The translations under genes and the position numbers were made by a program. Below are positions 1,090 to 47,072 of a DNA stretch of 64,000 nt, one piece after another (the first letter of the stretch is position 1; every line of letters starts with the position of its first letter). The notes beneath the pieces are model-generated. The model was not told the DNA's origin. It did not search any database and saw only the letters and a program-made list of their open reading frames with translations. Origin of the DNA: Candidatus Ferrigenium altingense. GTDB taxonomy: Bacteria; Pseudomonadota; Gammaproteobacteria; Burkholderiales; Gallionellaceae. The stretch covers positions 248,001-312,000 of the forward strand of contig JAHRYS010000001.1 of NCBI GenBank assembly GCA_020621985.1, written 5' to 3'.

Positions 1090-2892
<1,803 letters not shown>

Positions 2893-2936
2893 TTAAGCTT
2901 GTTCGGATATTACAGACAAAAAATTATTTGCGGAAT

Positions 2937-2966
2937 GCGACATGATGTCGCGCGGCAAATTGCCGC
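2937..2966. promoter_or_regulatory. double palindrome, copy 1, upstream of nirS
   Basis: GCGACAT-G-ATGTCGC directly abutting GCGGCAA-A-TTGCCGC, both perfect 7-bp arm palindromes. Confidence 0.6.
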
Positions 2967-3031
2967 ACCCATCATCTTGAACGGTTCGACTGCACCGATA
3001 AGTACAGGGCGCACTCGATGTTTGTGGGGTG

Positions 3032-3208
3032 TTACGGAACCCTATGGATTGCTTTGTCGGCGCCATTTGGGGGAGGGGTTGAAGTCGAGGGGAGGTTGGG
3101 ATAATGGCGGGGCGCGGGGATCCTGTTTTTTGTTTCGACAATCTCAATAGAACAAAGGGCCGCAGACAGCAGCTTGAAAAATTTGTTTTCTTTCAGTTTG
3201 GCAAACAT
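3032..3208 (-). CDS. small ORF (58 aa), unknown, possibly a truncated gene
   Basis: MFAKLKENKFFKLLSAALCSIEIVETKN...; AAGGGGAAAC Shine-Dalgarno-like sequence just upstream of ATG; short. Confidence 0.3.
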   Translation of the reverse strand: MFAKLKENKFFKLLSAALCSIEIVETKNRIPAPRHYPNLPSTSTPPPNGADKAIHRVP

Positions 3209-3398
3209 GTTTCCCCTTACTTTGGTTGTTGTGCAAGTCAATTGCATGAATGAATAATTAGGTGCCAAAAGCCCGTATCGCATTCCCGGCAAATTGAAGT
3301 GTCGATCGGGAGAGGACACATCACACGCTATCGCTGGAAACAATGATGCAGTGCTTTTGGCAAGGTGGATTGTTGATTAAAAAAATCAGTTTGGGAAT

Positions 3399-3428
3399 GT
3401 GACATGATGCCGCGCGGCAATTTGTCGC
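3399..3428. promoter_or_regulatory. double palindrome, copy 2 (diverged)
   Basis: GTGACATGATGCCGC+GCGGCAATTTGTCGC, matches copy 1 with few substitutions; flanks also match (GGAATG...CCCAT). Confidence 0.55.
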
Positions 3429-3533: not shown

Positions 3534-4553
3534 TTAATTGGTGATTTCTGCCAGATTCCAGCGCGGTTTGACGTTGAAGCGATAATCCTTGTCGCCTTGC
3601 TGTTGCGCCAAGCGAAGCGCTCCGGCAAAGGCGATCATCGCGCCGTTGTCAGTGCAAAATTCCAGGTCAGGGTAAAACACGGCGCCGCCACGTTTGCCGA
3701 TGTCTTCATTCAGGCGGTTGCGCAATAGCCGGTTTGCGCCCACACCGCCCGCCACGACTAACCGATTCAACCCAGTCTGCGCCAAAGCGGCGCGCGCCTT
3801 GTGCGTCAGTACATCGATGATGGCTTCTTGTACAGCGCAGGCGATATCGGCGCGTGTCTGTTCATGGTGGTCGCTTTGCTTTGCCAGCGTCCATACCGCC
3901 GTCTTTAATCCGCTGAAACTGAAATCCAGATTGCCGCTGTGCAGCATCGGGCGTGGCAGCTTGTATTGTCCGGAGCGGCCCGAAGCGGCGAGTTTGGCCA
4001 ATGCAGGCCCTCCTGGATAGTCCAAGCCCAGCAGCTTCGCGCTCTTGTCGAAGGCTTCTCCGGCCGCGTCGTCCAATGTCTCGCCGAGCAAAGTGTATTG
4101 TCCCACGCCGTCCACGCGCATCAATTGCGTATGCCCACCGGAAACCAGCAAGGCGACGAAGGGAAATTCCGGTGCGGGATCGGATAATAAAGGGGAAAGC
4201 AGATGGCCTTCCAGATGATGGATGCCGATGACGGGAATGTCGAGCGCGTAGGCCAGTGCGTTGGCAACGCTGGCGCCGACTAATAATGCGCCTCCTAAGC
4301 CCGGCCCCTGGGTATAGGCAATGGCATCGATCCGGGCTAGCGACACATCGGCGGCATGCATGACTTGGCGCAGCAGTGGGATGATGCGCCGGACATGATC
4401 GCGTGAGGCGAGCTCCGGCACGACGCCGCCATATTCGCTGTGCATGGCGACTTGGGTATGCAACGCATGTGCCAATAACCCGCGCCCCATTTGGTAAAGC
4501 GCGATACCGGTTTCATCGCAAGATGATTCAATTCCAAGTGTAATCAGTGACAT
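3534..4553 (-). CDS. tsaD: tRNA N6-adenosine threonylcarbamoyltransferase
   Basis: [21 protein letters not shown]... with TsaD/Kae1 motifs ([22 protein letters not shown]). Confidence 0.96.
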
Positions 4554-4643
4554 TGTTACCTCTGTGCAAGAGTGCGCATTGTAGTCAATCCACCGTCTGA
4601 GCATGGGTGCGCGATGTTTTTTTAAAAAATATTACGAAATGTG

Positions 4644-5035: not shown

Positions 5036-6576
<1,541 letters not shown>

Positions 6577-6621
6577 GAGAATCCAAAGGCTGAGTGCCTA
6601 CACTCATCGGTTGTTCGAAAG

Positions 6622-6716
6622 CAGGACTGAGGAACGAGGACTAAGTGCTGAGTTAAAGCGGTGGCGCAGCCACGCGGAACACTCAGTCCTGAGTTTCTCG
6701 GTACTCAGTCCTGAAG
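6622..6716. repeat. degenerate heptanucleotide repeats within the 16S-tRNA-Ile spacer, inverted arrangement
   Basis: GGACTGA GGAACGA GGACTAA GTGCTGA ... and on minus GGACTGA GTACCGA GAAACTC AGGACTG. Confidence 0.6.
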
Positions 6717-6720
6717 TTAT

Positions 6721-6797
6721 GGGTCTGTAGCTCAGCTGGTTAGAGCATTGTGTTGATAACGCAGGGGTCGTTGGTTCGAGTCCAACCAGACCCACCA
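6721..6797 (+). tRNA. tRNA-Ile (GAT)
   Basis: Cloverleaf GGGTCTGTAGCTCAGCTGG...TTGATAAC...GGTTCGAGTCCAACCAGACCCACCA. Confidence 0.97.
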
Positions 6798-6812
6798 GAG
6801 CAAGGAAAAATG

Positions 6813-6888
6813 GGGGGTTTAGCTCAGCTGGGAGAGCACCTGCTTTGCAAGCAGGGGGTCGTCGGTTCGATCCCGTCAACCTCCACCA
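6813..6888 (+). tRNA. tRNA-Ala (TGC)
   Basis: GGGGGTTTAGCTCAGCTGGGAGAGCACCTGCTTTGCAAGCAGG...AACCTCCACCA. Confidence 0.97.
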
Positions 6889-7211
6889 ACACCTTGGAAA
6901 AATAAGCGAGAACCTATATTCAAGCCATTGCGGCTTCGGTATTGGCTTTTGCCGATAAGCAGTTCTTTAAAAATATGGAAGAAGTAAAGAAAGTGATTCA
7001 CGCGCAAGCGTTGACGGGGCAACCCATTGGCGTGAGCGTATGAAAAACAATGGGTTTTGATTGTATCAAGCCAATTCATGATTAGTCATTGTGAATTGGT
7101 CACAAACCTTTGCGAAAGCCGGATCCTTAAATCAATCCGGTGGAAGTAAAAGTTAAAAATGCGAAACACTTATAACGCCTTGACAGCGATGTCGAGGGCT
7201 TAACGTTATAG

Positions 7212-10096
<2,885 letters not shown>

Positions 10097-10248
10097 TATA
10101 ACATTAAGTTGTTTATAGCGTGTGACGCAGTACAATCAAAACACAGCTTTACTTCTTCCAGATACGGTTCGTTGATCGAGCGTCAAAACTCGGGCAAGGA
10201 ACCACAAACAGGGTTGGCTGCAGAACAGCGCAGCTGACCGAACAGTTT

Positions 10249-10363
10249 GTCTGACGACCATAGCGAGTTGGTCCCACTCCTTCCCATCCCGAACAGGACA
10301 GTGAAACGACTCCGCGCCGATGATAGTGTGGATTACCCATGTGAAAGTAGGTCATCGTCAGAC
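10249..10363 (+). rRNA. rrf: 5S ribosomal RNA
   Basis: GTCTGACGACCATAGCGAGTTGGTCCCACTCCTTCCCATCCCGAACAGG...GTGAAAGTAGGTCATCGTCAGACT. Confidence 0.95.
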
Positions 10364-10619: not shown

Positions 10620-10705
10620 GGAGGGGTGGCCGAGTGGTTAAAGGCAGCAGACTGTAAATCTGCCCTCTTATGAGTACGAAGGTTCGAACCCTTCCCCCTC
10701 CACCA
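10620..10705 (+). tRNA. tRNA-Tyr (GTA)
   Basis: GGAGGGGTGGCCGAGTGG...ACTGTAAAT... long variable arm ...CCTCCACCA. Confidence 0.97.
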
Positions 10706-10780
10706 AATGTTTTGGCTTTTGGTTAGCTTGGCTGGCGTTGCGACAACCGCTGTTTGGGCCGTTGTTTAGTTGGAAAGCAC

Positions 10781-10854
10781 GCGGGTGTAGCTCAATGGTA
10801 GAGCAGAAGTTTTCCAAACTTACGACGAGGGTTCGATTCCCTTCACCCGCTCCA
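10781..10854 (+). tRNA. tRNA-Gly (TCC)
   Basis: GCGGGTGTAGCTCAATGGTAGAGCAGAAGTTTTCCAAACTT...CACCCGCTCCA. Confidence 0.97.
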
Positions 10855-10866
10855 GTTTGGATTTTT

Positions 10867-10941
<75 letters not shown>

Positions 10942-44249: not shown

Positions 44250-47072
44250 CTATCGCTTTTTCATCGCCTGCTTCAAATATTTCCCCGTCACGCTGTTCTT
44301 GTCTTTGGCGATGTCTTTCGGCGCGCCTTCCGCGATGATGCGGCCGCCGCCGTCGCCGCCTTCCGGGCCGAGGTCGATCACCCAGTCGGCGGTCTTGATC
44401 ACGTCGAGGTTGTGCTCGATCACCACCACGGTGTTGCCCTGGTCGCGCAGCTTGTGGATCACCTTGAGCAGCAGCGCGATGTCGTGGAAATGCAGGCCGG
44501 TGGTCGGCTCGTCGAGGATGTACAGGGTGCGCCCGGTGTCGCGCTTGGATAATTCGAGCGACAGTTTGACGCGCTGCGCCTCGCCGCCGGACAGCGTGGT
44601 GGCGGATTGCCCGAGCGTGATATAGCCGAGGCCGACGTCGAGCAGGGTTTGCAGCTTGCGCGCGATGACCGGCACGGGCTTGAAGAATTCATACGCCTGC
44701 TCGACGGTCATCTGCAAAATCTGGTGGATGTTTTTGCCCTTGTACTGGATCTCCAGCGTCTCGCGGTTGTAGCGCTGGCTGTGGCACACGTCGCACGGCA
44801 CATACACGTCCGGCAGGAAGTGCATCTCCACCTTGATCATGCCGTCGCCCTGGCAGGATTCGCAGCGCCCGCCCTTGACGTTGAACGAAAAGCGCCCCGG
44901 CCCGTAGCCGCGTTCGCGCGCCGACGGCACCCCGGCGAACAGCTCGCGGATCGGCGTGAACAGGCCGGTATAGGTCGCGGGGTTGGAGCGCGGCGTGCGC
45001 CCGATTGGGCTTTGATCGACGTTGATCGCCTTGTCGAAAAATTCCAGCCCGCTGATTTCGGCATGAGGCGCGGGTTCGGTGTTGCTGCCATACAGATGCT
45101 GCGCGACGGCGGGATACAGCGTGTCGTTGATCAGCGTGGATTTGCCGGAACCCGACACGCCGGTGACGCACACCAGCAGGCCGACCGGCAGATTTAGCGT
45201 GATGTCCTTCAGGTTGTTGCCGGAAGCGCCGACGATGTGCAGCATGCGTTCCGGGTCGGGCTTGAGAGATTTTTCCGGCATCGGGATGCTGCGGCGGCCG
45301 GTCAGATAATCGCCGGTGAGCGACTGCTCGCTCTGGCAGATTTCTTCCGGCGTACCCTGCGCGACGACCAGCCCGCCGTGCTCGCCCGCACCTGGCCCCA
45401 TGTCCACCACGTAGTCGGCATGGCGGATCGCCTCCTCGTCGTGCTCGACCACGATCACGCTGTTGCCCATGTCGCGCAGCTTCTTCAGCGTTTGCAGCAG
45501 GCGGTTGTTGTCGCGCTGGTGCAGGCCGATGGACGGCTCGTCGAGCACGTACATCACGCCGGTCAGGCCGGAGCCGATCTGCGACGCGAGGCGGATGCGC
45601 TGCGCCTCGCCGCCGGACAGCGTCTCGGCGGAGCGCTCCAGCGACAGGTAATCCAGCCCGACGTTGTTCAGGAAGGTCAGGCGGCTGGCGATTTCCAGCA
45701 CGATCTTTTCCGCGATCGCCCGCTTGTGGCCTTGCAGCTTCAAGCCCTGGAAGAAAGTCAGCGCATGCTTCAGCGGCAGCGCGCTGATCTCGTACAGGTT
45801 CATTTCCGCGACGCGCACATGGCGCGCTTCCAGGCGCAGGCGCGTACCCTTGCATTCCGGGCAGGGGCAACTGTTCAGGTATTTCGCCAGCTCCTCGCGC
45901 ACGGCGGGCGAGTCGGTCTCCTTGTAGCGGCGTTCCAGATTATTGACGATGCCCTCGAAGGCATGTTCGCGCAGCATCGGCTTGCCGCGCTCGTTGATGT
46001 ACTGGAACGCGATCTCGGTCCTGCCGCTGCCGTACAGGATCACCTGCTGAATCTTCTCCGGCAGGCTCTCGAACGACTGCTCGATGTCGAAGCCGTAATG
46101 CTTCGCCAGGCCGGCGAGCAACTGGTGATAGAACTGGTTGCGCCGATCCCAGCCCTTGATCGCGCCGGAGCTTAACGACATCTGCGGGAAGGCGACGATG
46201 CGTTTCGGGTCGAAGAAGCTGATGTTGCCGAGGCCGTCGCACTTCGGGCATGCGCCCATCGGATTGTTGAACGAGAACAGGCGCGGTTCCAGTTCCGGCA
46301 GCGAGTAGCTGCAAATCGGGCAGGCGAATTTCGCCGAGAACAGATGCTCTTTGTCCGTATCCATTTCCACCGCCAGCGCGCGGCCTTCGGCGTGGCGCAG
46401 TGCGGTCTCGAACGATTCGGCCAAACGCTGCTTGGCTTCCGCACTGACCTTCAGCCGATCCACCACGATCTCTATCGTGTGTTTCCTGTTCTTCTCCAGC
46501 TTCGGCAAGGCGTCGATCTCGTAAACTTTGCCGTTGATGCGCAGCCGTGTAAAACCCTGCGCGCGCAGCTCGTCGAACAAATCCAGTTGCTCGCCCTTGC
46601 GCTCCACCACCAAAGGAGAAAGAATCATCACCTTCGTGCCTTCCGGCAGCTCCAGCACATGATCCACCATCTGGCCTACCGACTGTGCCGCCAGCACCAG
46701 GTCGTGCTGCGGGCAATACGGGTCGCCCGCGCGCGCGAACAGCAGCCGCAGGTAATCGTGTATCTCGGTGACCGTGCCGACCGTCGAGCGCGGGTTGTGC
46801 GACGTGGCCTTCTGCTCGATCGCGATCGCGGGCGACAGGCCCTCGATCAGATCCACGTCGGGCTTTTCCATCAGCTGCAAAAACTGCCGCGCGTACGCCG
46901 ACAGCGATTCGACATAACGGCGCTGCCCCTCGGCATACAAGGTGTCGAAAGCGAGTGAGGACTTGCCCGAACCGGACAGCCCGGTGATCACCACCAGCTT
47001 ATGCCGCGGCAGATCGAGGCTGATGTTCTTCAGGTTATGCGTGCGTGCGCCGCGAATCTTGATTTGTTCCAT
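44250..47072 (-). CDS. uvrA: excinuclease ABC subunit A
   Basis: [65 protein letters not shown]. Confidence 0.98.

Follow-up and report, generated by a model that had tools for sequence, protein, structure and literature searches.

The nirS locus and its double palindromes

The window, as the whole stretch of DNA analysed is called here, is 64 kb of the genome of Candidatus Ferrigenium altingense, a MAG that is 81% complete; the MAGs of its relatives are incomplete too. It contains nirS, a small ORF and tsaD on the same strand, and a double palindrome lies upstream of each of the first two (Table 1). No dedicated NirS model matched the nirS product in an NCBIfam search. On the opposite strand beside tsaD is a complete rRNA operon (16S, two tRNAs, 23S and 5S; 5036-10363), with tRNAs at 10620-10938.

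Table 1. Positions in the window of the tandem boxes, the promoter elements assigned to them and the adjacent genes
Feature	Position	Strand	Evidence or remark
Tandem RegA-type box, copy 1, nirS promoter P1	2937..2966	-	Single boxes rank 3 and 7 and pair ranks 1 with the RegA matrix; kept in 6 genomes
Putative -35 of P1, TTCCGC	2930..2935	-	Inferred; 1 bp from box, 17 bp from -10
Putative -10 of P1, TAATAT	2907..2912	-	24 bp from box end; offset statistics; TANTAT in six nirS promoters
Tandem RegA-type box, copy 2, promoter P2 of small ORF	3399..3428	-	Kept together with P1 in G015, G071 and G088
Putative -35 of P2, TTCCCA	3392..3397	-	Inferred
Putative -10 of P2, AACAAT	3369..3374	-	24-bp spacing as in P1
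Conserved small ORF, 58 aa, MFAKLKENKFFKLLS..., AAGGGG Shine-Dalgarno	3032..3208	-	Homologues in relatives
nirS, cytochrome cd1 nitrite reductase, 558 aa, target gene	1090..2766	-	Similarity to NirS homologues; named in the earlier note
tsaD, upstream neighbour in the same direction, non-target	3534..4604	-	TIGR03723, 437.5 bits

Copy 1 consists of GCGACATGATGTCGC and GCGGCAAATTGCCGC, each a palindrome with perfect 7-bp arms, which meet at 2951/2952. Copy 2 (GTGACATGATGCCGC followed by GCGGCAATTTGTCGC) is imperfect and retains the purine/pyrimidine pattern. The arrangement proposed in the earlier note, two abutting 15-bp palindromes with a diverged second copy, is thus confirmed, as are its distances of 171 bp from copy 1 to the nirS ATG (2937-2766) and 191 bp from copy 2 to the small-ORF ATG (3399-3208). 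The likeness of the flanks also holds: ATTCC (GGAAT on the + strand) adjoins the box, and the likely cause is that this ATTCC forms the putative -35. When up to three mismatches are allowed, the 30-bp pattern has two matches in the window and none in 100 dinucleotide shuffles. The double palindrome is a genuine promoter switch present in two copies.

Sequence comparison indicates that the small ORF behind copy 2 is real. It belongs to a group of microproteins of about 46-82 aa with the N-terminal pattern MFxKLxxxKxFKxLS, for which only 7 of 158 family genomes give clear matches. Homologues occur in the genomes with boxes at nirS (G015, G071, G086 and G088) and in two genomes of another genus, where they also lie behind a tandem box, at loci other than nirS (L072:4150-4290; L074:2847-2987). 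Transcription from P2 may read through into nirS.

The repeated unit resembles RegA-family sites

The unit GYGRCA-N3-TGYCRC agrees with the published site of the RegA/RegR/PrrA/RoxR family, and the tandem pairs fall within the published 15-bp RegA motif. Except at the central TT, the unit also agrees with the RegR box GNGRCRTTNNGNCGC (as given in PMC5506826). A symmetric matrix was built from 33 R. capsulatus RegA ChIP-seq sites only (PMC5359404), and is therefore independent of the boxes described here. Among the 63,986 positions of the window, the single palindromes rank 2 (3414), 3 (2937), 7 (2952) and 73 (3399), so that only the palindrome at 3399-3413 is a weaker match on its own. When pairs spaced by 15 bp are scored, the two copies rank 1 and 2. 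Both pairs occupy the top two places with only 10 of 500 column-permuted matrices, so base order matters, beyond composition. The third-best tandem match to this matrix in the window is at 44543-44572 (GCGACAGTTTGACGC at 44558).

Boxes also occur at the gene of the cognate regulator and at known classes of target: regB, regA2, norC and nirS; one single box lies close to a nirK-like gene (L057). The earlier note had considered an operator-type element, which is upheld; the 30-bp pattern occurs upstream of the nor operon as well. Its suggestion of an undescribed regulator responsive to nitrite or NO found no support, as the unit fits the published RegA-family site and is kept at regB. The predicted binder of the double palindrome is most likely the known redox regulator RegA, and the regulator is probably a known redox two-component system rather than an undescribed NO sensor.

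RegA of R. capsulatus and PrrA of R. sphaeroides recognize the same type of 15-bp site, GCGNCA-N3-TGNCGC, as in GTGACAATTTGTCCC (cydA), GCGTCAATATGGCGC and CGGACAAAATGTCGC (PMC5359404). However, these sites are published as single, imperfect sequences of varying quality, whereas here two near-perfect sites abut at one distance from the -10. In Bradyrhizobium, RegR binds the norC promoter and is required for its anoxic induction, and most tested promoters have two putative RegR boxes (PMC4064962). That system has in common with the boxes of the window genome a unit like GNGRCRTTNNGNCGC (PMC5506826) and control of nor. It differs in belonging to an Alphaproteobacterium, in its variable half-site spacing and in a FixK2 site that is also present at norC, while the nirS of the window has no FNR-type site. 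RoxSR/RegAB of Pseudomonas and Burkholderia is an orthologous redox system. In B. cenocepacia, GCGGCAATTTAGAGC upstream of cyd is reported as a potential RoxR site (PMC9104464), and denitrification genes are under RegAB control in B. pseudomallei (PMC8191878), but no tandem box at nirS is described for this system (PMC9104464, PMC8191878). What appears to be new, from these sequence comparisons, is the tandem module with its fixed promoter geometry, together with an apparent rewiring of nirS.

RegB and two RegA-like proteins

ORFs read around box matches in the window genome encode RegB and RegA as a pair (L007) and, adjoining norB (L008), an orphan RegA-like protein, RegA2. RegA1 and RegA2 each comprise a receiver (Response_reg) and a Fis-type helix-turn-helix (HTH_8), without an AAA+ domain. 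Their best curated family is ActR/PrrA/RegA NF033791, with 198.5 and 189.3 bits, the next family scoring about 75. Both scores are below the curated cut-off of 250 bits, and the proteins are therefore called RegA-like homologues, not certified equivalogs. In both proteins the helix-turn-helix (NVSATARALNMHRRTLQRKL in RegA2) is near-identical to its counterpart in 3rqi, a response regulator of solved structure. The RegB translation (L007:6779-8197) contains the quinone motif GGSTNPF (GGXXNPF type), the sequence HELGTPLS and recognizable kinase domains, and scores 251 bits against NF033792, for which the cut-off is 350.

Proteins of the RegA family are found in 144 of 158 family genomes, and in 91 of 94 good ones, too evenly for box counts over the family to be related to RegA presence or absence. 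Single boxes, and a few tandem ones, also occur in drafts that lack RegA, most of which are incomplete. In 27 of 29 testable relatives a box is found at -49 to -52 of regB, in some of them as a tandem. A conserved TTACAAT is located about 6 bp before the regB ATG, some 24-25 bp after the box (L142-L171). The regB mRNA is probably leaderless or nearly so.

RegA2 (L008:9974-10525; L110:455-1006) is about 73% identical to RegA1 and has its own tandem box, 137 bp from the listed start of the ORF. Among 26 nor loci, tandem boxes are confined to two genomes, which have them at both norC and regA2, with RegA2 beside norB. RegA2 was also considered as an obligatory partner of the nirS boxes and rejected, because G015, G079 and G088 combine a nirS box with a single RegA.

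Promoter geometry

The promoters of nirS, the small ORF, nor and regA2 share one layout, in which the box is followed by ATTCC, 19 bp and a -10-like hexamer. Among 122 tandem-box flanks, 59 start with ATTC, and TANNNT occurs at an offset of exactly 24 in 45, against a mean of 2.1 per offset. After similar flanks were removed, 14 of 22 ATT flanks have TANNNT at offset 24, where 0.25 are expected (binomial P about 2e-22). All six nirS promoters with boxes retain TANTAT at this position, and copy 2 has AACAAT there. The predicted transcription start of P1 is near 2900. The -35 hexamers are poor (TTCCCA in P2, TTCCGC in P1), and the geometry fits an activator site that abuts a weak -35, as would be expected of an activator touching polymerase.

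Distribution and predicted regulon

In the whole genome, the specific 30-bp pattern (up to three mismatches) matches one additional place, C7:203546, which precedes a small membrane ORF and norC-norB. The degenerate tandem, two GYGRCA-N3-TGYCRC units at 15 bp, matches six places (one with a mismatch), and the reversed-pattern control none. The single 15-mer has 31 places, versus 2 for its reversed control; several of them, GC-rich at the centre, located within large ORFs and without an ATTCC flank, may be chance matches. Within the family, 73 of 158 genomes from 10 of 15 genera contain the tandem pattern, and the reversed pattern is found in none. The tandem box is not exclusive to the family, as it also turns up elsewhere in the order, in a small number of genomes from other families (19 of 399 genomes in all).

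The tandem boxes of relatives lie mostly by TonB-dependent receptors (39 ORFs of one cluster), and others neighbour efflux MFP/OEP genes, regBA or cytochrome c'. Copper-linked genes recur beside tandem or single boxes (L056, L095, L105, L106, L057): genes for the copper-storage protein Csp1, for a PCuAC chaperone opposite regB and for CusB-like efflux, and a nirK-like gene. RegA of R. capsulatus is reported to bind copper (PMC9147068), and copper as a second input signal of the regulon is a possible lead only. The signal read by the boxes may not be specific to denitrification, in that the genes behind most tandem sites encode TonB receptors or are copper-linked. Boxes in the window genome also lie near ECF sigma factor/FecR genes and TonB receptors (L054, L061, L064), which suggests that ECF sigma factors act below RegA in a cascade. 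The nar operon was rejected as a target, because the 6 kb covering narXL, narK and the start of narG in the window genome contain no box.

Proposed mechanism and alternatives

Each copy is most readily explained as a pair of adjacent sites for RegA (ActR/PrrA/RegR/RoxR family) that abuts the -35 of a sigma-70-type promoter, a reading to which we assign a probability of roughly 85%. It draws on sequence comparison: the boxes themselves, their match to RegA sites, their placement at regB, regA2, norC, nirS and TonB-receptor genes, and the fixed spacing to the -10. In the proposed mechanism, RegB would sense a reduced quinone pool or low oxygen, and RegA~P would bind as two side-by-side dimers, with palindrome centres predicted near -44 and -59, and recruit RNA polymerase from a class II-like activator position. 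P1 would drive nirS directly, and P2 the small ORF and perhaps nirS; further targets in the window genome would be norCB and the orphan regA2 next to it. RegA occupancy, the redox signal and activation rather than repression are predicted from the known biology of the family (PMC4064962, PMC8191878, PMC5359404), and binding by two dimers is likewise a prediction.

RegA might instead occupy the same site as a repressor, by roadblock or polymerase exclusion, or act only with another factor. RegA of R. capsulatus represses many targets, including ccoNOPQ (PMC5359404), and autorepression is conceivable at regB, where a -10 lying only about 6 bp from the ATG follows the box at a distance of about 24 bp. 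However, the box overlaps neither the -35 nor the -10, a single strict spacing over many promoters is typical of activators, the -35 hexamers are poor, and norC is activated by RegR in Bradyrhizobium (PMC4064962). Either reading is unlikely. Somewhat less probable still is a different, undescribed regulator of the tandem palindrome, for example another Fis-type or a TetR-type sensor of NO or nitrite. The tandem layout is much stricter than that of published RegA sites, and RegA of At. ferrooxidans yielded no motif; the RegA-type motif could not be assigned to the Acidithiobacillus protein (PMC5506826). Nevertheless, the box is conserved at regB across the family, fits RegA ChIP sites and is present at regA2, and its targets are many TonB receptors and efflux genes, not NO genes alone.

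Two explanations that do not involve a binding protein are very improbable, and the fixed spacing from box to -10 argues against both. Palindromes form hairpins irrespective of their role. As hairpins of a nirS 5' leader, the repeats would function in RNA; compared with shuffles, the strand has a somewhat better fold (z -2.62), and a transcript reading through from P2 would include copy 1. This RNA element was rejected because no Rfam match lies near the boxes and palindromicity accounts for the z score. Moreover, the same 30-mer precedes unrelated genes, and the 24 bp to the -10 put the box upstream of its own transcript, so the structured 5' UTR offered in the earlier note is not borne out. 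A dispersed REP/MITE-like repeat without a regulatory role would account for several copies per genome, and many copies outside nir and nor, which by the earlier note would point to such a repeat, do exist. Yet these are promoter-positioned at TonB-receptor, efflux and regB genes and therefore form a regulon; the sequence varies within the purine/pyrimidine code while the spacing is kept, and the position is conserved at orthologous promoters. The dispersed repeat was rejected on these promoter-like positions.

Control of nirS within the family

FNR/DNR regulators acting through TTGAT-N4-ATCAA have the same target gene and a similar activator role, but a different site. As the earlier note had observed, the architecture here is not of that type: the 500 bp upstream of the window's nirS contain no TTGAT-N4-ATCAA match with up to two mismatches. 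An FNR/DNR operator was rejected on this absence, even though Crp/FNR-family regulators are present in the window genome. The five other tandem-box nirS genes have no FNR-type site with up to one mismatch.

Among 30 nirS loci of the family, only six have tandem boxes; their NirS proteins are at least 89% identical to that of the window and form one clade (100/99 support). Named members of this group are 'Ca. Ferrigenium bremense', 'Ca. F. straubiae' and Gallionella MAGs. The nirS of G093 has a single box. Conservation upstream of nirS thus holds in the nearest clade and not beyond it. Eight family nirS genes (L132-L139), at about 67-73% identity, have FNR/DNR-like sites (up to one mismatch). 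A direct swap from an FNR/DNR site to a RegA box at nirS would be only an extrapolation, because about fifteen other family nirS genes carry neither element. FNR-type sites (up to one mismatch) occur at 42 of the 76 named nirS loci that have sufficient upstream DNA; the six Gallionellaceae-type nirS genes with boxes have none, and a seventh box match, L221, is marginal.

Five of the six genomes with nirS boxes contain narG, versus 16 of 158 in the family. A pangenome study found narGH to be rare in Gallionellaceae, with Ferrigenium KS genomes among the carriers (PMC10734462). Both 'Ca. F. bremense' and 'Ca. F. straubiae' possess a further, diverged nirS paralogue immediately upstream of copy 2 (L079:3775-5481; L202:474-2081), and the two paralogues fall in different places in the NirS tree. 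Perhaps, in nitrate-reducing, Fe(II)-oxidizing Gallionellaceae, nirS moved from FNR/DNR to RegB-RegA control by way of the tandem-box module, and in two genomes a duplicated RegA2 without a kinase joined the nor cluster with the same boxes. This history is tentative. If it is true, there would be a branch dedicated to denitrification, with nitrite and NO reduction tied to the quinone redox state and possibly to copper.

Implications

A literature search found no binding or expression data for Gallionellaceae RegA; 'Ca. Ferrigenium straubiae' exists as an isolate (PMC12622760). Two RegA boxes, ATTCC and 24 bp from box to -10 make up a readable promoter code, which predicts RegA targets across a family of iron oxidizers with few genetic tools. 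The arrangement suggests that in nitrate-reducing iron oxidizers the redox state of electron transport may set nitrite and NO reduction, a role usually held by FNR/DNR.
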